From NCBI GenBank assembly GCA_029782145.1, contig JAKOVH010000030.1, forward strand, positions 372,001-436,000: a DNA stretch of 64,000 nt, in the 5' to 3' direction. This document shows positions 1 through 13,686 of this stretch, piece by piece (position 1 is the first letter of the stretch; each line of letters starts with the position of its first letter). The notes below the pieces were generated by a model. That model did not search any database and was not told the origin of the DNA. It saw only the letters and a program-made list of their open reading frames with translations. Source of the stretch: Actinomycetes bacterium. GTDB taxonomy: Bacteria > Actinomycetota > Acidimicrobiia > Acidimicrobiales > Acidimicrobilacustridaceae. Position numbers and translations under genes: made by a program.

Positions 1-1
1 C

Positions 2-439
2 GCCGACCTGGTGGGCGCCATGCGGGGCGCGGTCGAGCTGTCGGTCGACTACGCCAAGGAGCGGCGCCAGTACGGCACGGCCATCGGCTCGTTCCAGGCC
101 GTGCAGCACCTGCTCGCCGACGCCCACGTGCTCGCCGAGGGGTCGCGCAGCGTCGCCCTCCACGCGGCCTGGGCGGTCGACGCGCTGGCGCCCCGCGACG
201 CCCTCGCCGCGGCGGCGGTCGCCAAGGCCTACTGCGCCCGCGCCGCCCGCACGGTGGGCGAGACGGCCATCCAGGTCCACGGCGGCATCGGCAACACCTG
301 GGAGTGCCTGGCCCACGTGTTCGTGCGCCGCGCCCTGCTCGCCACCGACGTGCTCGGGGGCGAGGGCCCCAACCTCACGCGAGTGCTGGCCCACCACGGT
401 GTGGGCGACCAGACGGGAGCTGGCGATGGACTTCGGTGA
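2..439 (+). CDS. Acyl-CoA dehydrogenase, C-terminal part (5' end outside the window)
   Basis: The frame is open from base 2 and reads into the alpha-helical C-terminal domain of an acyl-CoA dehydrogenase; the N-terminal and beta domains lie upstream of the window. Visible family motifs are RRQYGTAIGSFQAVQH (flavin and dimer contacts) and HGGIGNTWE near the end, whose Glu is the likely catalytic base in this subgroup. The stop codon overlaps the next acyl-CoA dehydrogenase by 14 bp. Adjacent dehydrogenase genes of this kind often encode alpha2-beta2 enzymes acting on steroid or other bulky acyl-CoAs; this one would be the base-carrying subunit. Substrate unknown. Confidence 0.88.
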   Translation, partial: ADLVGAMRGAVELSVDYAKERRQYGTAIGSFQAVQHLLADAHVLAEGSRSVALHAAWAVDALAPRDALAAAAVAKAYCARAARTVGETAIQVHGGIGNTWECLAHVFVRRALLATDVLGGEGPNLTRVLAHHGVGDQTGAGDGLR

Positions 440-1556
440 CTCTCCGGCCGAGGCGGAGTTCCGCCAGCGGTTCCGGGCGTGGCTGGTCGACAACAACCCC
501 GGCCTGCCCGCCTCCTCCACCGACGACGACTACTGGGCCGGCCAGGCCGCCTGGCACCAGTCGCTCTACGACGCCGGCTTCTTCGGCCTGTCGTGGCCGA
601 CGGAGGTGGGCGGCCACGGCCTGCCCAGCGTCTACGACGCCATCCTCGACGAGGAGCTCGCCGCCGCCGGCGCCCCGCCCCGCCCGGGCCTGGGCTACCT
701 GGTGCACGGCATCCTCGAGCACGCCAACGACGACATCAAGGCCCGCTTCCTGCCCGGCCTGGTGAACGGCCGCGACCGCTGGTGCCAGGGGTTCAGCGAG
801 CCCGACGCCGGCTCCGACCTGGCGTCGCTGCGCACCCGCGCCGAGCGCGACGGCGACGAGTACGTGATCACCGGGCACAAGGTCTGGACCAGCTACTCCG
901 ACGACGCCGACTGGTGCCTGGTGCTGGCCCGCACCGACCACGAGGTGCCGCGCCACAAGGGCATCTCGGCGTTCGCGGTGGCGATGGACCAGCCCGGCAT
1001 CGAGCAGCGCCCGCTCAAGATGATCAACGGCATCACCAAGGAGTTCGGCGAGGTCGTCTTCGACGGGGCACGCGTGCCAGCCGCCAACATGATCGGCGAG
1101 CCCGGCGACGGCTGGCCGCTCGCCATGACGGTGGTGAGCCACGAGCGCGAGCCCGGCGAGCTGGGCTACGTGGCCCGCTACCGCAAGCTGGCCAAGGAGC
1201 TCACCGCCGCGGTGAAGGCCGACCCGACGGCCTACGACGCCGAGCAGGTCCGCCAGCTCGGCTGGGCGATCGTGGAGACCGAGATGCTGCGCCACCACGT
1301 GTCGCGCCGGCTGTCCGACCGCCTCGACGGCATCACCCACGGCCCCGAGGGCTCGGTCGACAAGCTGCTCATGACCTGGACCGAGCAAACGGTGGGGCAC
1401 GCCGCGCTCGGCATCGGCGGCGCCGACCACACCGGCGACGGCGACGACACCTGGCTGAAGGTGTACCTCTACAGCCGGGCCCAGAGCGTCATGGGCGGCA
1501 CCTCGCAGATCCAACGCAACCTCATCGCCCGGCGCATCCTGGGCCTGCCGGCGTGA
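426..1556 (+). CDS. Acyl-CoA dehydrogenase
   Basis: A 376-residue FAD acyl-CoA dehydrogenase with all three domains: an N-terminal helical domain, a middle beta domain with FSEPDAGSDLASL and TGHKVWTSY, and a C-terminal helical domain ending GGTSQIQRNLIARRILGLP. The ATG at 426 was chosen because GGGAGC lies just upstream; an in-frame GTG at 399 is less likely. At the place where medium-chain dehydrogenases carry the catalytic Glu (YEGTSQ) there is a Gly (GGTSQ), so the partner encoded just upstream, which keeps a Glu in GNTWE, may supply the base. The gene overlaps both neighbours, consistent with translational coupling. Confidence 0.9.
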   Translation: MDFGDSPAEAEFRQRFRAWLVDNNPGLPASSTDDDYWAGQAAWHQSLYDAGFFGLSWPTEVGGHGLPSVYDAILDEELAAAGAPPRPGLGYLVHGILEHANDDIKARFLPGLVNGRDRWCQGFSEPDAGSDLASLRTRAERDGDEYVITGHKVWTSYSDDADWCLVLARTDHEVPRHKGISAFAVAMDQPGIEQRPLKMINGITKEFGEVVFDGARVPAANMIGEPGDGWPLAMTVVSHEREPGELGYVARYRKLAKELTAAVKADPTAYDAEQVRQLGWAIVETEMLRHHVSRRLSDRLDGITHGPEGSVDKLLMTWTEQTVGHAALGIGGADHTGDGDDTWLKVYLYSRAQSVMGGTSQIQRNLIARRILGLPA

Positions 1557-1969
1557 GCGAGACCGCCGGTCGTCTCGTGGTCGAGGACCAGCTGGCGGTG
1601 CAGCGGGTGCTCGCCGAGTACTGCCACCGCATGGACGCCGGCGACTTCGAGGCGGTGGTCGAGCTGTTCACCCCGGACGGCACCTTCTCGTTCGGCCGGC
1701 GGTCCGCCACGGGCCGCGACGCGCTGGTGGCCTGGTTCGGCGAGAACCACCCGCCCGAGCAGCGCGGCCTGCACGCCACGACCGACCTGGTCGTCGACCT
1801 CGACGACGACGGCCGGGCCCGGGCGGTGTCCAGTTACCTGTTCGTGCGCTGGATCGACGGGGCGCTCGTCACCGAGACGGCGGGCCGCTACCACGACGTG
1901 CTCGTGCGCGGCGACGGCGGTTGGCTCATCGAGCACCGGGAGGCCCGGATGCTGCGCCCGCCGCGGTGA
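1553..1969 (+). CDS. SnoaL-like (NTF2-fold) protein
   Basis: A 138-residue NTF2-fold protein. The pattern LAEYCHRMDAGDFEAVVELF followed by FTPDGTF is typical of SnoaL-like cyclases, dehydratases and isomerases. The GTG start overlaps the preceding stop in a GTGA arrangement, so it is translated with the dehydrogenase pair. A related 132-residue protein follows the second dehydrogenase pair at 5022, which suggests a working link with these dehydrogenases, perhaps hydration/dehydration of the enoyl-CoA product or accessory binding. No catalytic residues can be assigned with confidence. Confidence 0.8.
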   Translation: MSETAGRLVVEDQLAVQRVLAEYCHRMDAGDFEAVVELFTPDGTFSFGRRSATGRDALVAWFGENHPPEQRGLHATTDLVVDLDDDGRARAVSSYLFVRWIDGALVTETAGRYHDVLVRGDGGWLIEHREARMLRPPR

Positions 1970-2033
1970 CGCCCGATGGTGCCCGGCGAGGCAGCAGCGA
2001 CGATCTGTCGACCGACGAGACGGAGGAACAGCG

Positions 2034-2828
2034 ATGGCTGACGGTGTGACCGAGCGGGGGCCCAACGGCGAGCTGGTGGTCGAGGCCAGGGGACCGGTGC
2101 GGATCGTGACGCTCAACCGGCCCGCCGCCCTCAACGCCGCCAACGACGTGCTGCACGGCGAGCTGGCCCGCGTCTGGCCCGAGCTCGACGCCGACCCCGA
2201 GGTCCGCGCCATCGTGCTCACCGGCGCCGGCGACGCCTTCTCGGCCGGTGGCGACCTCAACCTGCTCGACCGCATGGTGGTCGACACCGAGCTGCGGGCC
2301 GCCGTCATGGCCGAGGGCGTCGACATCGTTCGCGGCATGACCGCCGTGCGGGTGCCGATCATCGCGGCCGTGAACGGGCCGGCCGTGGGCCTGGGGTGCA
2401 GCCTGGCGTCGATGAGCGACCTCGTGGTGGTCGACGAGCGGGCCTACTTCGCCGACCCCCACGTGGCCCTGGGCCTCGTGGCCGCCGACGGCGGCGCGCT
2501 GGTGTGGCCGCTGCTCACCAGCCTGCTGCGGGCCAAGGAGTACATCCTGCTCGGCGAGCGGCTGCCCGCCGAGACGGCGGTGCAGCTCGGGTTGGCCAAC
2601 CGGGTCGCGCCGGCCGGCACGTCGGTGGAGGTCGCCCTCGAGCTGGCCGAGCGCATGGCCGCCCTGCCGCCCCAGTCCGTGCGTGAGTCGAAGGCCGTCC
2701 TGAACGACGCGCTGCGCCGAGCGGTGGCCACGGTGCTCGACCCGGCCATCGAGGCGGAGACGGCGTCGTTCGACGAGGAGGCGTTCCAGGCCAACCTGGC
2801 CCGCATGCTGCGGCGCTCCGAGGGCTGA
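2034..2828 (+). CDS. Enoyl-CoA hydratase/isomerase (crotonase) family protein
   Basis: A 264-residue crotonase-fold protein with the oxyanion-hole segments DAFSAGGDLNLL and NGPAVGLG. A GGAGG ribosome site lies at 2022-2026 before the ATG. The two Glu residues that activate water in classical hydratases (positions 144 and 164 of the rat enzyme) align here with Ser (GCSLA) and His (ADPHV), while an Asp occurs in the following VAADGG loop. Hydration by the classical mechanism is therefore uncertain; isomerase, thioesterase or another crotonase reaction is possible. It lies between two dehydrogenase/SnoaL modules in one gene run. Confidence 0.86.
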   Translation: MADGVTERGPNGELVVEARGPVRIVTLNRPAALNAANDVLHGELARVWPELDADPEVRAIVLTGAGDAFSAGGDLNLLDRMVVDTELRAAVMAEGVDIVRGMTAVRVPIIAAVNGPAVGLGCSLASMSDLVVVDERAYFADPHVALGLVAADGGALVWPLLTSLLRAKEYILLGERLPAETAVQLGLANRVAPAGTSVEVALELAERMAALPPQSVRESKAVLNDALRRAVATVLDPAIEAETASFDEEAFQANLARMLRRSEG

Positions 2829-2834
2829 GCCACG

Positions 2835-3863
2835 GTGGCCGCGGCATCGACCGCCACTGCCTCCGCGGACGAGATCCGCCAGCTGCGCGACGCGCTGCGC
2901 GGCATGCTCGGCACCGCCGAGCAGGGCGCGCCGCCGGCGCCCGATGCCGGGTGGCGCAGTGGCTGGCCGGCGCTGGCCGAGATGGGCGTCACCTCCTTCT
3001 GCGTCGGCGAGGAGAAGGGCGGCTTCGGCCTCGACGTGCGGGCGGCGGCGGCCACGGCCTCCGAGCTCGGGGCGGCCCTGCACGCCAGCCCCTACGCCGG
3101 CCTGGTCGCGGCCACGCGGGCCCTGTCGGCGAGCGACGACCCGGTGGCCGCCGAGGTGCTGCCCGCGGTGCTCGCCGGCGAGCGGGTCGCCGCCTTCGGG
3201 CGGATCGATCACAGCGGGCGGGTCGCCCGGGTGGTCGACGGCGCGCCCGACGCGGACCTGCTGGTGCTCGCCCGCCCCGGCGACGACGAGCTGGTGCTGC
3301 TCACCGACGGGGCCGCGTGGAGCGTCGACACCTCCCTCGAGGGCTTCGACGTGTCCCGCACCTGCGGCGACGTCACCGTCGACCCGAGCCTCGCTCGGCC
3401 GCTGGGCGCCGATCCGGTGGCCGTGCAGCTGCACCGGCTGCTCCTCGCCGCCGACGCCGTGGGCTGCGTCCGGCGGATGGTCGACCGGACGGTGGCCTAC
3501 GCCGGCGAGCGCGTCGCCTTCGGGCGGCCCATCGGCGGCTTCCAGGCCGTGCAGCACCGCCTGGCCGACCACGCCGTGCGCGCCCGGGGCATGGCCCTCG
3601 CCGTCGACGAGGCCGCCGGGTCGGTGGCGTCGGCCTCACCCGGCGCGGCCCGTGCCGTGGCGGTGGCCGAGGTGGCGGTCAGCGCCAGCGCCACCCGAGT
3701 CCTGCACGACCTGCTGCAGCTCACCGGCGCCATCGGCTTCACGTGGGAGTACGGCCTGCACTTCTTCGAGCGCCGGGTGCACCACGACGCCCGGCTGGCC
3801 GCCAACCCGCGGGCCGCGGTGCGGGCGTTGGCCACGATCGAGGGGTGGACCGGTGCGCGCTGA
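2835..3863 (+). CDS. Acyl-CoA dehydrogenase, base-carrying subunit type
   Basis: A 342-residue divergent acyl-CoA dehydrogenase starting at GTG, 6 bp after the crotonase stop. The N-terminal and middle domains are short and poorly conserved (the middle domain lacks the usual SEP.AGSD motif), but the C-terminal domain is typical: ERVAFGRPIGGFQAVQH and GAIGFTWEYGLHFFERR with the probable base Glu. This is the pattern of the regulatory-looking or base-carrying partner in heteromeric dehydrogenases. It overlaps the next dehydrogenase gene by 11 bp, so the two products are probably made together. Confidence 0.86.
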   Translation: MAAASTATASADEIRQLRDALRGMLGTAEQGAPPAPDAGWRSGWPALAEMGVTSFCVGEEKGGFGLDVRAAAATASELGAALHASPYAGLVAATRALSASDDPVAAEVLPAVLAGERVAAFGRIDHSGRVARVVDGAPDADLLVLARPGDDELVLLTDGAAWSVDTSLEGFDVSRTCGDVTVDPSLARPLGADPVAVQLHRLLLAADAVGCVRRMVDRTVAYAGERVAFGRPIGGFQAVQHRLADHAVRARGMALAVDEAAGSVASASPGAARAVAVAEVAVSASATRVLHDLLQLTGAIGFTWEYGLHFFERRVHHDARLAANPRAAVRALATIEGWTGAR

Positions 3864-5025
3864 CGCCGAGGTCGAGGCCTTCCGGGCCGAGGTGCGCGCC
3901 TTCATCGCCGAGCACGGGCCCGCGCTGCGCGCCGAGGGCCTGCGGGTGCCACGCGACGCCGACGAGGAGCGCCGCATCCGCGCCTGGCTCGGTTCGCTCT
4001 ACGAGGCGGGCTACCTCGGTGGCGGCTGGCCCGAGGAGTGGGGCGGTCGGCCGGACCACCTGCCCGTGCACGACCTGGTGGTGATGGAGGAGCTGATCCG
4101 CGCCCGCGCCTACCGCCCGCTCGACCAGGTCATGCTGGCCGCCCACGAGATCATCGAGTTCGGCAGCGACGACCAGAAGCGCGAGCTGCTGCCGAAGATC
4201 CGCTCGGGCGAGCACGTCTGGTGCCAGCTGTTCAGCGAGCCCGACGCGGGCAGCGACCTGGCGTCGCTGCGCACCAGGGCCGAGCCGGTCGACGGCGGCT
4301 TCGTCGTCACCGGCCAGAAGATCTGGAGCACCGACGCCCAGTGGGCCGACATGGGCGTGCTGCTCGCCCGCACCGATCCCACGGTCGACCGCCACGCCGG
4401 CATCACCGCCTTCGTGGTGCCGATGGGCCTGCCCGGCATCGAGGTGCGGCCCATCCGGGAGATGACCGGCGACGCCGAGTTCTGCGAGGTCTTCCTCGAC
4501 GAGGTCCGCCTCGGCTCCGAGCACGTGCTGGGCGAGGTCGACGACGGCTGGCGGGTGGTGACCTCGGGCCTGGCCTCCGAGCGGGCCTTCGTCGGCGCCA
4601 ACGCCCTGCAGCTCGAGATGATGTTCGCCGACCTCGTGGCGCTCGCCCGCGCCGCCCGCCTGCCCGACGGCAGCGCCGCCATCGACCACGAGGACGTGCA
4701 GGCCCAGCTGGCCGTGGCCCTGGCCCGGGTGGAGGAGGCCAACCTCATCACCCGCGACACCGTCGAGCGCATCCTCGTCGACGACGAGCACCCGAGCGAC
4801 GGGCCCGTGGCCAAGCTGAGCTACACCGAGACCAACGTGGCGCTGTGCGAGGCGGCCCTCGAGCTGCTGGCCGGCGCCGCCACGATCGGCGAGGAGGGCC
4901 GCGAGGTGGCCGAACGGTGGCGGCACGACTTCTTGTGGAGCCGGGCGCTCACCATCTCCGGTGGCGCGTCGGAGATCATGCGGGGCCTCATCGGCCGCCA
5001 GCTGCTGGGGCTCCCGCGGGCATGA
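3853..5025 (+). CDS. Acyl-CoA dehydrogenase
   Basis: A 390-residue acyl-CoA dehydrogenase. The GTG at 3853 overlaps the end of the preceding dehydrogenase. Family motifs are FSEPDAGSDLASLRTRAEP, VVTGQKIWST and the C-terminal SGGASEIMRGLIGRQLLGLP. As in the protein at 426, the residue aligned with the medium-chain catalytic Glu is Gly, so it probably pairs with the GFTWE subunit at 2835. Its middle-domain motifs are intact, so it should bind FAD and acyl-CoA. Substrate unknown; the genes downstream (P450 remnant, DUF35/thiolase pair) fit sterol-like or branched acyl chains. Confidence 0.9.
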   Translation: MRADAEVEAFRAEVRAFIAEHGPALRAEGLRVPRDADEERRIRAWLGSLYEAGYLGGGWPEEWGGRPDHLPVHDLVVMEELIRARAYRPLDQVMLAAHEIIEFGSDDQKRELLPKIRSGEHVWCQLFSEPDAGSDLASLRTRAEPVDGGFVVTGQKIWSTDAQWADMGVLLARTDPTVDRHAGITAFVVPMGLPGIEVRPIREMTGDAEFCEVFLDEVRLGSEHVLGEVDDGWRVVTSGLASERAFVGANALQLEMMFADLVALARAARLPDGSAAIDHEDVQAQLAVALARVEEANLITRDTVERILVDDEHPSDGPVAKLSYTETNVALCEAALELLAGAATIGEEGREVAERWRHDFLWSRALTISGGASEIMRGLIGRQLLGLPRA

Positions 5026-5420
5026 GCGGCCTGCCCACCCCGGCCGACGACATCGCCATCCGCGACCTGCTGGCCCGCTACTGCCTGCTGCTGGACCTCG
5101 ACGACGTCGAGGGCTGGGTCGCCCTGTTCACCGCCGATGCCGCCTACGAGGTCTACGGCCGCACCTTCGACGGTCACGACGGCCTGCGCCGCATGGCCAC
5201 CGGTGCGCCGGGAGGGCTCCATCTCGGCGGGCCCCCCGTGATCGAGGTCGACGGCGACCGAGCCTCCACGTTGCGCAACCTGCTCTTCGTCGAGCGCACC
5301 ACCGGCGAGGCCCGCCACGCCGTCTACGACGACGACCTGGTGCGCACCCCCGACGGCTGGCGCATCGCCCGCACCCGCTGCCGCTTCATCGTGGCCGACG
5401 GCCTCAGCGACCGCCCGTAG
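5022..5420 (+). CDS. SnoaL-like (NTF2-fold) protein
   Basis: A 132-residue NTF2-fold protein whose ATG overlaps the preceding stop (ATGA). The segment IRDLLARYCLLLDLDDVEGW followed by VALFTADAAYEV matches the SnoaL-like pattern and resembles the protein at 1553, so each paired-dehydrogenase module ends with one such gene. It ends 7 bp from the convergent P450 remnant. Role inferred only from the fold and position. Confidence 0.8.
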   Translation: MSGLPTPADDIAIRDLLARYCLLLDLDDVEGWVALFTADAAYEVYGRTFDGHDGLRRMATGAPGGLHLGGPPVIEVDGDRASTLRNLLFVERTTGEARHAVYDDDLVRTPDGWRIARTRCRFIVADGLSDRP

Positions 5421-6072: not shown

Positions 6073-6207
6073 CGGGCGCCTGCGCTCGGCTCCGTGCGTC
6101 GGCTGTGGCTGCGGACTGTAGCTGCGCCCCGACCATGCGACCTGACGTCGACGTCGACATCGGAAATGGCCTACTGTCCGGGTGCCGGCGCACTTGGAGG
6201 TACCGCC

Positions 6208-6636
6208 TTGGCCCAGATCGCGTTCGCCCCCGATGTCTTCACCTGGCCCGCCGACGAGCCCAGGCTGATCGGGGGTCGCTGCACCAGCTGCGGCACCGTC
6301 ACCTTCCCGGTGTGGCCGTCGTGCGCCCGCTGCGGCTCGACCGAGGTGGAGCAGCACCTCCTCCCGCGGCGGGGCACGTTGTGGACCTTCACCACCCAGG
6401 AGTTCCTGCCCAAGGAGCCCTACGCCGGCGGCGAGACCGCCGAGACGTTCCGGCCCTACGGCATCGGCCTGGTGCAGCTCGACGACGAGGTGCGGGTCGA
6501 GGCCCGGCTCACCGAGAGCGACCCCGCCACGCTGCGCATCGGGATGGAGATGGAGCTGGTCGTCGTGCCGTTCCGCACCGACGACGACGGCACCGAGGTC
6601 ATGGTCTACGCGTTCGCGCCGGTGGAGGGGAGCTGA
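6208..6636 (+). CDS. DUF35 OB-fold zinc-ribbon protein (thiolase partner)
   Basis: A 142-residue DUF35 protein: an N-terminal rubredoxin-like zinc ribbon (CTSC and CARC, 12 residues apart) followed by an OB-fold. The TTG start at 6208 is chosen because GGAGG lies 7 nt upstream (6196-6200) and no ATG or GTG fits. In sterol side-chain pathways DUF35 proteins or domains bind thiolase-fold enzymes (for example ChsH2 with Ltp2). The stop is followed one base later by such a thiolase-like gene, so a two-protein complex is likely. Confidence 0.85.
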   Translation: MAQIAFAPDVFTWPADEPRLIGGRCTSCGTVTFPVWPSCARCGSTEVEQHLLPRRGTLWTFTTQEFLPKEPYAGGETAETFRPYGIGLVQLDDEVRVEARLTESDPATLRIGMEMELVVVPFRTDDDGTEVMVYAFAPVEGS

Positions 6637-6637
6637 C

Positions 6638-7783
6638 ATGGTCGACGTCGCCATCATCGGGGTCGGGCTGCACCCCTTCGGCCGGTTCGGCCCGAAGTCG
6701 GCCATCGACATGGGCGCCGACGCCATCCGGGCGGCCCTCGCCGACGCCGGCGTGCAGTGGGCCGACGTGCAGTTCGCCTTCGGCGGCAGCTTCGAGGTCG
6801 ACAACCCCGACGCCGTCACCAGCCGCCTGGGGCTCACCGGCATCCCCTTCATGGACGTCTACAACGGCTGCGCCACCGCGGCCACGGCGCTGTCGCTCAC
6901 GGCCGACGCCATCCGCTCGGGCCAGTACGACCTCGGCGTCGCCGTCGGCATGGACAAGCACGAGCCCGGCGCCTTCACGTCCGACCCCGTCGACTACGCG
7001 GCGCCGCCCTGGTACGGCGAGATCGGCCACTTCCTCACCACGAAGTTCTTCGCCATGAAGATCAACCGGTACATGCACGACCACGGGATCTCGGATCGCA
7101 CCCTTGCCCGGGTGGCGGCGAAGAACTACCGCAACGGCGTGCTCAACCCCAACGCCTTCCGGCGCAAGCCCATCAGCGAGGACGACATCCTCGCCTCGCG
7201 GATGCTCAACTACCCGCTCACCCAGTACATGTTCTGCTCGCCCGACGAGGGGGCGGCGGCAGTCGTGCTGTGCCGGGCCGACATCGCCCATCGCTACACC
7301 TCCACGCCCGTGTACCTGCGGGCCTCCACCGTGCGCACCCGCCGCTTCGGCGCCTTCGAGGTGCACGCCTCGTGGGCGGCGGTCGAGCAGGACGCCGCGC
7401 CCACCGTCTACGCGTCGAAGGCGGCCTACGAGCAGGCCGGGATCGGCCCCGACGACGTCGACGTCATCCAGCTGCAGGACACCGACGCCGGCGCCGAGGT
7501 CATCCACATGGCCGAGAACGGCTTCTGCGCCGACGGCGACCAGGAGCAGCTGCTCGCCGACGGGGCCACCGAGATCGGCGGACCGCTGCCGGTCAACACC
7601 GACGGCGGCCTGATCGCCAACGGCGAGCCCATCGGCGCGTCTGGCCTGCGCCAGGTGCACGAGCTGGTCCTCCAGCTGCGGGGGCAGGCCGGCGAGCGGC
7701 AGGTGCCGGGCAACCCGCGGGTCGGCTACGCCCAGCTCTACGGCGCACCCGGCACGGCGGGCGTGTCGATCGTGTCGCTGTAG
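6638..7783 (+). CDS. Thiolase-like protein (lipid-transfer/aldolase type)
   Basis: A 381-residue thiolase-superfamily protein. The N-terminal nucleophile region reads VYNGCATAATAL with Cys in the expected place. The C-terminal half has QLQDTDAGAEVIH and a G-rich loop (IGASGLRQVHEL) in place of the usual GGG(I/V)A thiolase motif. This belongs to the non-decarboxylating lipid-transfer-protein/aldolase branch that works with DUF35 partners, for example retro-aldol or thiolytic cleavage of side-chain beta-oxidation intermediates. Starts one base after the DUF35 stop. Whether it acts as a thiolase or an aldolase cannot be settled from sequence alone. Confidence 0.84.
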   Translation: MVDVAIIGVGLHPFGRFGPKSAIDMGADAIRAALADAGVQWADVQFAFGGSFEVDNPDAVTSRLGLTGIPFMDVYNGCATAATALSLTADAIRSGQYDLGVAVGMDKHEPGAFTSDPVDYAAPPWYGEIGHFLTTKFFAMKINRYMHDHGISDRTLARVAAKNYRNGVLNPNAFRRKPISEDDILASRMLNYPLTQYMFCSPDEGAAAVVLCRADIAHRYTSTPVYLRASTVRTRRFGAFEVHASWAAVEQDAAPTVYASKAAYEQAGIGPDDVDVIQLQDTDAGAEVIHMAENGFCADGDQEQLLADGATEIGGPLPVNTDGGLIANGEPIGASGLRQVHELVLQLRGQAGERQVPGNPRVGYAQLYGAPGTAGVSIVSL

Positions 7784-8780: not shown

Positions 8781-10406
8781 ATGTTCACCATCGGTGCCGA
8801 CCCGGTCTGTGTGGTCCCCGAGCAGCGGGGTGGGGTGGCGCCTCGGCTCCTCGAGCAGGTCTCTCGGATGGCAGACGAGGCCCTGACGGAGCGGGCCCGT
8901 GAGCTGGCTGGGGAGATCTCGGCGGCGGAGGCGAACCTGGCGGCGGTGATGGCCGAGGTCGAGCGGCGGGGGATCCATTCGCGCTGGCAGTGCCACACGG
9001 TGGAGCGCTTCGCCGGGTGGCACTGTGAGATGAACCCGTCGCGGACCAAGGCGTTGGTGGCGGTGGGTCGCTCGATGGGGGACTTGCCGGTGCTGGCCGA
9101 AGCGGTCGCTGATGGCACGTTGAGCTTCGACAAGGCCAAGGCCGTGGCCAAGGTGGCAGCGCCCGACACCGAGGGTGCGTTGGTGGAGTTGGCGGTGCAC
9201 GCCACGGTGGCGCAGACCCAGCGGATCTGCGGGGCGTGGCGCAAGGTCGACACCCGAGACGCCGCCGAACAGCCCGGCGACGACGCCGTCATCGTGACCG
9301 ACGATCCGCGGCCGACGGTGGTGGTGTTCCGTGACGACGACGGGATCGAGATCACCTGCCGGTTCGACCACGTGCGTGGCGAGCTGGTGCTGGCCTCGAT
9401 CGACGCCGAAGCCCGCCAGGCCCGTCGAGAACGCGAGGCCGCGGCGGTGGTGGACCCGGCGCACGCCAACGACCCGCACGGGCGGCCGGCGTGCGAGGAG
9501 GACCGGCCGATCGAGAAGCTCTCGACTGCCGAGTGGCGGGCCGAGGGGCTGCTGCGCCTGGCCGAACGCTCCGCCGCGGAGGTGCCCGAAGGTGTGCAGG
9601 CGTCGGGGTTCGCCACGACCGTGGTGGTCCACGTCGGCATCGACACCCTCTACGGCCCCGACCTGCCCGACCCCGCCCAGCGAGACGGCGAGGGAACCTG
9701 CGAGCGGCGCGACGGGCACGGCGATCCGCCGCCCGAACGAGCGGAGGGGCGGCCGTCGCCCCGACTCGAGATGGCCGAGCTGGAACCGGCCGGGGTGCGG
9801 GTGCGTCGTGACGTGGCCCGCTGGTTGGCCTGCGACGCCGGGCTGCTCACCGTGATCGACGACATCGACGGCAACCCGCTGCACCTCGGGAAACGGACCA
9901 GCTCGGTGCCGGCGTCGTTGCGGCGGGCGGTGATGGCCCGTCACCGGCACTGCGCCTGGCCCGGCTGCACCGCCACCGCGGTGCAGATGCACCACCTGCA
10001 CCACCGCAGAGCCGGCGGCCACGACGACGTCGAAGCTCTCGTCCCCGAGTGCTTCGCCCACCACCGCACCATCCACCTCCACGGGGTGTGGATCACCATC
10101 GACGACCACGGCGGGTTCCACCACTGGCGAGCCGACGGCACCGAGATCCTCGCCAACCCCCACACCGGGCGCGCACCGGGCCCCGACGCCCTCACCGCAC
10201 CCGACACGCTGGCCCAGCGGCGCCTCGCCCTCGGTGCCGACCCGGCCGAGACCGCCCGCCAACCCCGCTGGCACGGCGACGTGCTCCTGCTCGGCGACGC
10301 CATCGATGCCGTGCTCGCCCGCCGCCACCTCGCCCTGCGCCGCACCCAACCCACCAAAGCCCCACCCGCCCCCCGCTACGGGCCCACACCACCCAACCCC
10401 AACTGA
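8781..10406 (+). CDS. DUF222 and HNH endonuclease domain protein
   Basis: A 541-residue protein of the 13E12-repeat/DUF222 family that is expanded in actinobacteria. Residues about 25-330 form the DUF222 region. The C-terminal HNH motif includes CAWPGCTATAVQMHHLHHRR, with paired Cys and His that would bind Zn and a metal, followed by ECFAHHRTIH. The tail after residue 450 is low-complexity and Pro-rich. The function of these proteins is unclear (nuclease, possibly linked to mobile DNA or phage response). It stands alone behind its own promoter. A second family member lies at 49857. Confidence 0.87.
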   Translation: MFTIGADPVCVVPEQRGGVAPRLLEQVSRMADEALTERARELAGEISAAEANLAAVMAEVERRGIHSRWQCHTVERFAGWHCEMNPSRTKALVAVGRSMGDLPVLAEAVADGTLSFDKAKAVAKVAAPDTEGALVELAVHATVAQTQRICGAWRKVDTRDAAEQPGDDAVIVTDDPRPTVVVFRDDDGIEITCRFDHVRGELVLASIDAEARQARREREAAAVVDPAHANDPHGRPACEEDRPIEKLSTAEWRAEGLLRLAERSAAEVPEGVQASGFATTVVVHVGIDTLYGPDLPDPAQRDGEGTCERRDGHGDPPPERAEGRPSPRLEMAELEPAGVRVRRDVARWLACDAGLLTVIDDIDGNPLHLGKRTSSVPASLRRAVMARHRHCAWPGCTATAVQMHHLHHRRAGGHDDVEALVPECFAHHRTIHLHGVWITIDDHGGFHHWRADGTEILANPHTGRAPGPDALTAPDTLAQRRLALGADPAETARQPRWHGDVLLLGDAIDAVLARRHLALRRTQPTKAPPAPRYGPTPPNPN

Positions 10407-11871: not shown

Positions 11872-13686
11872 ATGGCAGCCCGGAGGACCACCGCGACGGC
11901 GAAGAAGGCCGCGGCAGCACCTCTGGCGACGAAGGGCGCAGCGAAGAAGGCTGCGGCGAAGACGGGCACGGCCGAGAAGGCTCTGGCCAAGAAGAGCGCG
12001 CCGAAGAAGGCCACGGCGAGGAAAGCCGCAGCGAGGAAGGCGACGGCGAAGAAGGCCCCGGCGACGACAGCGGTCACCGAGAAGAGGGCGTCGCTCGAGC
12101 GCTACCACGCCATGCGGGACTTCCAGCGCACCCCCGAGCCGAGCGGCGAGGCGCCCGGCGTGGCGGCCGACGGCACCAGGCGGTTCGTGGTGCAGCGGCA
12201 CCGGGCCCGGCGGCTGCACTACGACGTGCGCCTCGAGATCGACGGGGTGCTGGTGAGCTGGGCCGTCCCCAAGGGCCCCACGCTCGACCCCGACGCCCGC
12301 CACATGGCCGTGCACGTCGAGGACCATCCCCTCGAGTACGCCGACTTCGAGGGCGTGATCCCGAAGGGCGAGTACGGCGGCGGCGACGTCATCGTGTGGG
12401 ACCGCGGCACCTGGGAGCCCCACGGCACGGACGACCCGGCCGCCGCCGTGCGGGAGGGCTCGCTGCACGTCGACCTCCACGGCGAGAAGCTGCGGGGCCG
12501 GTTCGTGTTCGTGCGCCGGGGCCGGCCCGACGCGGACGGCAAGGAGCAGTGGCTGCTGCTGCACAAGCACGACGAGGCGGCCGTGGCGGGCTGGGACCCG
12601 GAGGACCACCCGCGGTCGGTGAAGAGCGGTCGCACCAACGACGAGGTGGCGGCCGCCCCCGCGGCGGTGTGGCGCAGCGACGCCCCTGCCGACGAGGCGG
12701 AGGTCGCGCTGGGGGCGCCCGTCGAGGTGCCCACGTGGGAGGGCCCGACCGCCGACGAGCTGGCCGCCCTGGACGAGCTCGGCGCCAAGGGCACCTGGGT
12801 GGTCGCCGGCCGCGAGGTCGCCCTCACCAACCTCGACAAGGTGCTGTTCCCCGGGCGGGACGGCGAGGCGCCGGTGACCAAGCGCGACCTGGTGCGCTAC
12901 CACGCCCGGGTGGCTCCCCACCTGCTGCGCTACCTCCACGACCGCCCGGTGAACCTGCACCGGTTCCCCAACGGTGTGGAGCGACCGGGGTTCTGGCACA
13001 AGGAGGTGCCGTCCCACGCCCCGAGGTGGATGACCACGTGGCACAACGACCGGGCCGACCCCGGCGAGACCCAGTGGTACTTCGTCGTCGACCAGGTGGC
13101 GGCGCTCCCGTGGCTCGCCAACTACGGGGCGGTCGAGCTGCACCCGTGGACGTCCCGGGCGAGCGATCCTCGCCGGCCCACGTGGGCGCTCATCGACATC
13201 GACCCCGGCACCCGCACCACCTTCGACGAGGCGCTTGTCCTGGCGCGCCTCTACCGGGCGGCCCTCGAGCACCTGCAGGTCACGGCCCGGCCCAAGGTGA
13301 CCGGCAAGCGGGGCATCCAGATCTGGATCCCGGTGACGCCCCGGTACTCGTTCGACCAGACCCGCGACTGGGTGGAGAAGGTGAGCCGGGCCGTCGGGCG
13401 CACGGTGCCGGAGCTGGTGAGCTGGCGCTGGCACAAGACCGAGCGGGAGGGCCTGGCCCGGCTCGACTACACCCAGAACGCCGTCAACAAGACCCTGGTT
13501 TCGCCGTTCAGCGCCCGCCCGGCACCCGGTGCGCCGGTGTCGGTGCCCATCGAGTGGGACGAGCTCGACGACCCCGACCTCACCCCCGACCGCTGGACCA
13601 TCCGCACCGTGCTCGACCGCCTGGCCGAGGCCGGCGACCCGCTCGCCCCGCTCGTGGGCGCGGCCCAGGACCTCCCCGAGCTGTGA
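11872..13686 (+). CDS. LigD-like phosphoesterase-polymerase fusion with a Lys/Ala-rich tail, no ligase domain
   Basis: A 604-residue protein in three parts. Residues 1-72 are almost only A, K, T and R, like a histone H1 or HupB C-terminal tail, and should bind DNA. Residues 104-225 are the LigD 3'-phosphoesterase domain (FVVQRHRARRLHYDVRLE, SWAVPKGP, HPLEYADFEGVIPKGEYGGG). Residues 285-600 are the LigD/primase-like polymerase domain (LTNLDKVLFP, RPVNLHRFPNG, WALIDIDPG with the metal-binding Asp pair, KRGIQIWIPV). No ATP-dependent ligase domain and no Ku gene is in the window. Likely role: end processing and gap filling in non-homologous end joining with a separate ligase. AGGGGCGGG precedes the ATG. 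Confidence 0.88.
   Translation: MAARRTTATAKKAAAAPLATKGAAKKAAAKTGTAEKALAKKSAPKKATARKAAARKATAKKAPATTAVTEKRASLERYHAMRDFQRTPEPSGEAPGVAADGTRRFVVQRHRARRLHYDVRLEIDGVLVSWAVPKGPTLDPDARHMAVHVEDHPLEYADFEGVIPKGEYGGGDVIVWDRGTWEPHGTDDPAAAVREGSLHVDLHGEKLRGRFVFVRRGRPDADGKEQWLLLHKHDEAAVAGWDPEDHPRSVKSGRTNDEVAAAPAAVWRSDAPADEAEVALGAPVEVPTWEGPTADELAALDELGAKGTWVVAGREVALTNLDKVLFPGRDGEAPVTKRDLVRYHARVAPHLLRYLHDRPVNLHRFPNGVERPGFWHKEVPSHAPRWMTTWHNDRADPGETQWYFVVDQVAALPWLANYGAVELHPWTSRASDPRRPTWALIDIDPGTRTTFDEALVLARLYRAALEHLQVTARPKVTGKRGIQIWIPVTPRYSFDQTRDWVEKVSRAVGRTVPELVSWRWHKTEREGLARLDYTQNAVNKTLVSPFSARPAPGAPVSVPIEWDELDDPDLTPDRWTIRTVLDRLAEAGDPLAPLVGAAQDLPEL

Follow-up and report, generated by a model that had tools for sequence, protein, structure and literature searches.

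The closest described counterparts of the genes considered here belong to two enzyme types. The first is the alpha2-beta2 acyl-CoA dehydrogenase, exemplified by ChsE4-ChsE5 and ChsE1-ChsE2, in which the flavin ring, the catalytic glutamate and the substrate site lie in the alpha subunit and the ADP-ribose is met by the beta subunit (PMC11153573). The second is the SnoaL/NTF2-type steroid dehydratase, represented by SteC and BaiE, which act on the 12beta- and 7alpha-hydroxyl groups, respectively (PMC13101464), and by the BaiE homologue Hsh2 (PMC12175502); the substrates' ring hydroxyls are where the SnoaL-type steroid enzymes known so far act (PMC13101464).

Genes resembling both types lie at the start of a 64,000-nucleotide stretch from an Actinomycetes bacterium (GCA_029782145.1, contig JAKOVH010000030.1, positions 372,001 to 436,000), hereafter the window. 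The order beta-type dehydrogenase, alpha-type dehydrogenase, SnoaL gene occurs there twice (module 1, 2-1969; module 2, 2835-5420) with short overlaps and a crotonase gene between the modules, and on this arrangement open reading frames (ORFs) and protein families agree with an earlier note on this DNA. The alpha and SnoaL genes of both modules overlap by 4 nucleotides (GTGA, ATGA). The reading that we favour, with moderate confidence, is that the modules encode two distinct alpha2-beta2 dehydrogenases, that SnoaL1 and SnoaL2 act in the same pathway as lyases in their own right (in all likelihood dehydratases) and not as subunits, and that a block of genes came to lie behind beta1-alpha1.

Two different dehydrogenase pairs

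On sequence grounds, each pair resembles the alpha2-beta2 dehydrogenases, a likeness that the earlier note had proposed and that domain make-up and the nearest solved chains bear out. The two genes of a pair are adjacent, the alpha proteins contain N-terminal, middle and C-terminal domains, and the beta proteins lack an intact middle domain (for beta1, by Pfam only and from the C-terminal part). The ATG of beta1 lies upstream of the window, at L022:13438 (labels beginning with G, C and L denote genomes, contigs and loci of our survey). The best solved relatives of alpha2 are 4x28_A and the Tcur3483 chains 6wy9_A and 6wy8_B, all titled acyl-CoA dehydrogenase, and 6wy8_A and 4x28_D are among the 13 solved-structure matches of beta2; we take 4x28 to be ChsE4-ChsE5 and 6wy8/6wy9 to be IpdE1-IpdE2. 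Beta2 scored 126 bits against the NCBIfam IpdE2 model, under the cut-off of that model. Neither window pair reached a curated family model, and the NCBIfam names that hint at the substrate of the cluster were matched below cut-offs only.

The ASER motif of alpha2 aligns onto NHER of 4x28_A (ChsE4), and neither beta1 nor beta2 has a glutamate at the helix-G position. Because alpha carries the helix-G glutamate aligned with that of ChsE4 and neither beta does, the GxTWE motif of beta, which the earlier note had named as the catalytic base, was rejected for this role; published work on the ChsE enzymes likewise places the catalytic glutamate in alpha (PMC11153573). Alpha1 has a glycine at the base position of the medium-chain acyl-CoA dehydrogenase type, and proline residues near the helix-E position hint at a bulky pocket. 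The window pairs share with ChsE4-ChsE5, ChsE1-ChsE2 and IpdE1-IpdE2 the neighbouring alpha and beta genes, the helix-G glutamate in alpha and a beta protein with no recognisable middle domain, whereas they differ from them in low sequence identity, gene order and the presence of SnoaL genes nearby. We propose that beta1-alpha1 and beta2-alpha2 would be two different acyl-CoA dehydrogenases that degrade a bulky (polycyclic or branched) acyl-CoA.

A recent tandem duplication as the origin of the two modules was rejected, because alpha1 and alpha2 are 39% identical, SnoaL1 and SnoaL2 31-34% identical, and for both alphas a paralogue that scores better, with no SnoaL gene beside it, lies elsewhere in the genome.

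Gene neighbourhoods in this and other genomes

The genome that contains the window has 59 matches to the dehydrogenase family PF00441 and 21 to the SnoaL family PF13577. Counting pairs in regions where two PF00441 matches lie close, we identified 15 adjacent alpha/beta gene pairs and one fused pair. The latter (L035:3915-6050, G000:C28) has beta and alpha matches in one open frame of approximately 731 codons and represents a natural fusion. A PF13577 gene adjoins 3 of these 16 pairs (module 1, module 2 and a third cassette, L029), and the other 13 have none. With 21 PF13577 places in the genome, two such trios within 5.4 kb are unlikely to have arisen by chance placement; by estimate, not simulation, about 0.1 would be expected if SnoaL genes were scattered randomly. 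The idea that SnoaL generally accompanies paired dehydrogenases was rejected, given 3/16 pairs here and 0/65 distant loci in the scan described below. Relatives of SnoaL1 within the taxonomic order adjoin acyl-CoA ligases, not dehydrogenases. Throughout these surveys, genes counted as neighbours if they shared the strand of the matched domains and lay no more than 450 bases from them; gene labels derive from small in-house profiles, whose seeds were genes of the window and of the region upstream, and not from Pfam.

For module 1, the alpha1 search covered 396 phylum genomes, of which 13 (this genome included) matched at E 1e-90, together with eight chosen genomes and loci from the scan of named genomes. 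An alpha1 of 60-79% identity was found at 15 loci (L110-L120, L220, L222, L125 and L127). At every one of them a crotonase gene lies downstream of alpha1, 31-264 bases away, and at none does a SnoaL gene follow alpha1; the L127 pair stayed without a SnoaL when the threshold was relaxed. Left out of this count were two matches at 42-43% identity, one followed by a ligase (L121) and the other being the alpha of a SnoaL-alpha-beta cassette (L128), as well as the alpha1 of G610 (76%), which ends with its contig. Since the other 15 loci are without SnoaL, the adjacency of alpha1 and SnoaL1 is, within the loci seen, peculiar to this genome.

Close relatives of alpha2 are scarce, with matches in 4 of 396 phylum genomes at E 1e-80 and, at E 1e-100, in 4 of 296 genomes of the class (both counts include this genome and repeated genomes). 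Five loci have an alpha2 of at least 48% identity, namely those of the window, G378, G485, G533 and G610. The order in G378 (L089) is P450-beta2-alpha2-SnoaL2-ligase, with SnoaL2 at 50% identity. In G485 it is crotonase (71%)-ligase-SnoaL2 (67-68%)-gap-beta2 (55%)-alpha2 (74%)-SnoaL1-like gene (43%), and the alpha1 of that genome (73%) lies on a contig separate from the alpha2 block, with its own crotonase and without SnoaL; among 12 genomes of its family, only G485 itself carries the alpha2 block. In G533, beta2 is divergent and an acyl-CoA ligase separates alpha2 (74-75%) from SnoaL2 (73-74%). The alpha2 of G610 (48%) lies on a short contig without SnoaL, the contigs of this genome (80% complete) ending too early for judging the SnoaL neighbourhood, and the best SnoaL of the genome is 33% identical. 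SnoaL2 is thus in the neighbourhood of alpha2 at four of the five loci and directly behind it at two (window and G378); no SnoaL2-like gene was found in G150 or G195, whose alpha2 matches are 42-44% identical.

The window crotonase shares 71% identity with its counterpart in the G485 block and 54% with those behind alpha1. Because alpha1 is SnoaL-free elsewhere, G485 swaps the SnoaLs and the window crotonase is nearer to that of the G485 block, the genes SnoaL1-crotonase-beta2-alpha2-SnoaL2 probably form one block that was placed behind beta1-alpha1. The tandem appearance would then reflect the arrival of this block behind a pair whose own crotonase elsewhere directly follows alpha, and the change would have run in this direction.

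SnoaL1 and SnoaL2 resemble NTF2-fold lyases

Both window SnoaLs score far above the PF13577 cut-off of 24 bits, and family matches and AlphaFold models (pLDDT 90.3 and 91.3) assign them the NTF2/cystatin-like fold. Tyr20, Asp25 and His67 (SnoaL2 numbering) are invariant in all six cluster SnoaLs (two each in the window and G485, one each in G533 and G378) and align with the same three residues in 3ef8, annotated as a putative scytalone dehydratase. The window SnoaLs therefore have the Asp-His dyad plus Tyr of NTF2-fold lyases. In structural comparison, the SnoaL1 model matched 3ef8 with Z 19.3 (root-mean-square deviation 1.9, 133 residues aligned), LinA 3s5c with Z 18.8 (2.5, 134 aligned), BaiE 4leh with Z 18.4 (2.2, 138 aligned) and ketosteroid isomerase (KSI) entries with Z 16.6-17.1; differences below 1 count as ties, and proteins of unknown function are also among the top matches. 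BaiE is absent from the best 50 structural matches listed for the SnoaL2 model, which excludes nothing.

Several solved or characterised proteins allow closer comparison. The window SnoaLs resemble SteC, BaiE and Hsh2 in fold, in the Tyr/Asp/His set (on the BaiE active-site numbering adopted here) and in a catabolic context with dehydrogenases and short-chain dehydrogenases/reductases (SDRs), the likeness to SteC and Hsh2 being by description and not by sequence. They differ in that SnoaL1 is 12-13% identical to the BaiE chains in the structural alignment and that the window SnoaL genes overlap acyl-CoA dehydrogenase genes. Fold and dyad position are shared with LinA and scytalone dehydratase, whereas substrates and pathway are not; the catalytic dyad of LinA is H73/D25 (PMC3507683), and its correspondence to the SnoaL residues was read from aligned ranges, not from a residue-level alignment. 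The closest solved sequence to both SnoaLs is Rv3472 of M. tuberculosis (PDB 2chc, function unknown according to its title), matched at E 3.5e-12 by SnoaL1 and at 8e-13 and 9e-22 by profiles. Its Tyr and His are kept and align with those of the window SnoaLs, and the crystal is of a D26N variant.

Because of the fold, the Tyr/Asp/His set and the precedents of SteC, BaiE and Hsh2, a dehydratase role is our best guess. SnoaL1 and SnoaL2 would be small NTF2-fold lyases of the same pathway, using the Asp-His pair aided by Tyr for the loss of water next to an activating carbonyl, for example of a hydroxyl placed by a nearby P450. The earlier note had regarded the SnoaL gene as outside the known ChsE1/ChsE2 scheme; steroid metabolism already offers SnoaL-type dehydratases.

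KSI-like double-bond isomerases share the fold and appear among both structural and sequence matches. The KSI active site comprises Tyr14/16, Asp38/40 and Asp99/103, but the Asp38/40 base seems, judging from aligned ranges, to fall on non-acidic residues in the window SnoaLs, and the conserved Asp/His pair fits LinA-type lyases; an isomerase role seems unlikely. Alternatively, the SnoaLs might be hydratases of the same beta-oxidation turn, acting on the enoyl-CoA that the adjacent dehydrogenase makes and standing in for a MaoC-type enzyme such as ChsH1-ChsH2. Hydration is dehydration chemistry in reverse, and a SnoaL gene directly after the dehydrogenase and ahead of a DUF35-thiolase pair recalls the ChsE-ChsH-Ltp2 gene order. 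We consider this quite unlikely, given that the same block contains a crotonase, conserved along with it (71%), and that the known SnoaL-type steroid enzymes target ring hydroxyls (PMC13101464).

A role as small subunit of a Rieske oxygenase is highly improbable. SnoaL1 has a weak match to Ring_hydroxyl_B that stays under the cut-off (E 1e-4), L130 and L128 have a Rieske alpha gene upstream of a relative, and a Rieske-like ferredoxin stretch was noticed by eye upstream of module 1, but the PF13577 match is far stronger and the window SnoaLs showed no adjacent Rieske alpha gene, although no profile search was aimed at one.

A SnoaL-alpha-beta cassette with a degenerate SnoaL

The third cassette of this genome, approximately 105 kb from the window modules, has the order SnoaL-alpha-beta, and its SnoaL is without the dyad Asp and His. 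A SnoaL profile seeded with SnoaL2 and the L029 and L036 SnoaLs matched 13 of the 396 phylum genomes at E 1e-18, and all 12 top loci outside this genome have the same order (in L080, alpha is spread across two frames); among four weaker loci, G378 has beta-alpha-SnoaL and three have the SnoaL beside an SDR. To dodge a count biased towards SnoaL, named genomes were scanned with the cassette alpha. Among the best 80 of at least 595 loci, a SnoaL gene adjoins alpha in 14 of the 15 with at least 56% identity, L127 being the exception, and in none of the 65 with at most 46% identity, 30 of which are paired. Carriers include Actinomadura, a Microthrixaceae metagenome-assembled genome, Rhodococcus phenolicus, Gordonia amarae, Parafrankia and several Mycobacterium species. 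The earlier note had proposed a survey for SnoaL genes beside such pairs; the SnoaL gene proved not conserved beside the module 1 pair and only partly conserved beside the module 2 pair, and a fixed place was found only in this cassette.

In all 14 scanned copies of the cassette SnoaL, and in 7/7 others aligned, Tyr is kept, Asp is replaced by Thr and His by Phe. A lost dyad and a constant position next to alpha would be expected of a non-catalytic partner. On this basis the cassette might encode a three-part acyl-CoA dehydrogenase, whose third, non-catalytic subunit or substrate holder would be a SnoaL derived from a lyase of the window type, a tentative and rather unlikely proposal. Because the same 13 genomes of the 396-genome sets carry the cassette and an alpha1 match (only 44% in G083), cassette and alpha1 probably serve one pathway; the 13 are mostly close kin and not independent cases. 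We found no description of the cassette in Mycobacterium and relatives in the literature searched. The dehydrogenase pairs and window SnoaLs fall into already known kinds, and the lead added by comparison with the window is this conserved cassette, in which a degenerate SnoaL stands beside a dehydrogenase pair in Mycobacterium and its relatives.

Two side observations concern the same gene families. In Mycobacterium and Rhodococcus (L130:3742-6598 and L128:3538-6601), Pfam matches place genes for a Rieske oxygenase alpha subunit and for an amidohydrolase ahead of SnoaL-alpha-beta. Another SnoaL group without the dyad Asp/His occurs at L221:6029-6349, L224:1640-1969 and L225:8209-8532, with no dehydrogenase pair directly adjoining.

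Separate enzymes or subunits

The 4-nucleotide overlaps, and the position of SnoaL beside alpha and not beta in the trios seen, including the cassette (14/15; 12/12 by SnoaL search), would suit an accessory subunit or substrate-channelling partner of the neighbouring dehydrogenase. We nevertheless regard this role as unlikely for the window SnoaLs, which change partners (alpha1 loci, G485, G533) and retain a complete catalytic Tyr/Asp/His set, needless for a plain subunit, while most pairs are SnoaL-free (13/16 here, and the matched alpha in 65/65 distant loci). Because their neighbours change in related genomes, SnoaL1 and SnoaL2 are probably separate water-removing enzymes and not dehydrogenase parts. 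The fixed SnoaL partner envisaged by the earlier note is not borne out by the alpha1 loci (0/15), the alpha2 loci (2/5), the swap in G485 and the intervening ligase in G533. Of its two suggestions, an additional step or a subunit, the former gains from the tie of the SnoaL genes to such clusters and the latter loses by the change of partners. A plausible subunit model is thereby corrected to a testable enzyme step, with SnoaL-type dehydratases comparable to SteC and BaiE in actinobacterial acyl-CoA dehydrogenase clusters.

Four points weigh against separate lyases. The SnoaL1-like protein of G485 is only 43% identical, its orthology depending on cluster context and on its being the best match in 296 class genomes. 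SnoaL2 lies directly behind alpha2 at two of five loci and the G485 alpha2 is also trailed by a different SnoaL, so a link to alpha may exist. The Z scores of the SnoaL2 model do not separate lyases from isomerases. Finally, the related L029-type cassette nearly always has SnoaL beside alpha.

Features of the locus

Table 1. Genes of the two modules, their downstream neighbours and the third SnoaL cassette (window positions unless a locus is named).
Feature	Position	Strand	Remarks
Beta1, acyl-CoA dehydrogenase beta-type, module 1, C-terminal part	1..439	+	PF00441 E 9e-25; full ORF in L022
Alpha1, acyl-CoA dehydrogenase alpha-type, module 1	426..1556	+	N-M-C domain set; Glu240 of helix G lies in SHER
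SnoaL1 (PF13577, SnoaL_4)	1553..1969	+	E 1e-27, 96.9 bits; Tyr23/Asp28/His74 retained
Crotonase	2034..2828	+	Between modules 1 and 2
Beta2, acyl-CoA dehydrogenase beta-type, module 2	2835..3863	+	GFTWE; weak N domain, no M domain found
Alpha2, acyl-CoA dehydrogenase alpha-type, module 2	3853..5025	+	Helix-G Glu243 in ASER
SnoaL2 (PF13577, SnoaL_4)	5022..5420	+	E 2e-23, 83.2 bits; Tyr20/Asp25/His67 retained
DUF35-like gene, start not fixed	6196..6636	+	Own profile seeded with the same gene and an upstream relative
Thiolase/lipid-transfer-like protein	6638..7783	+	76-77% conserved in G485
Third SnoaL cassette of this genome, SnoaL-alpha-beta	L029:7408-9872 (G000:C2 about 267.4-269.9 kb)	-	Behind ferredoxin-reductase-like gene

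Further downstream in the window, two ORFs were noted by eye. A long ORF at 8781-10406 with a CxxPGC...HHR end resembles an HNH protein of the 13E12/DUF222 type, and a LigD-like ORF at 11872-13686 has an Ala/Lys-rich N-terminal tail.

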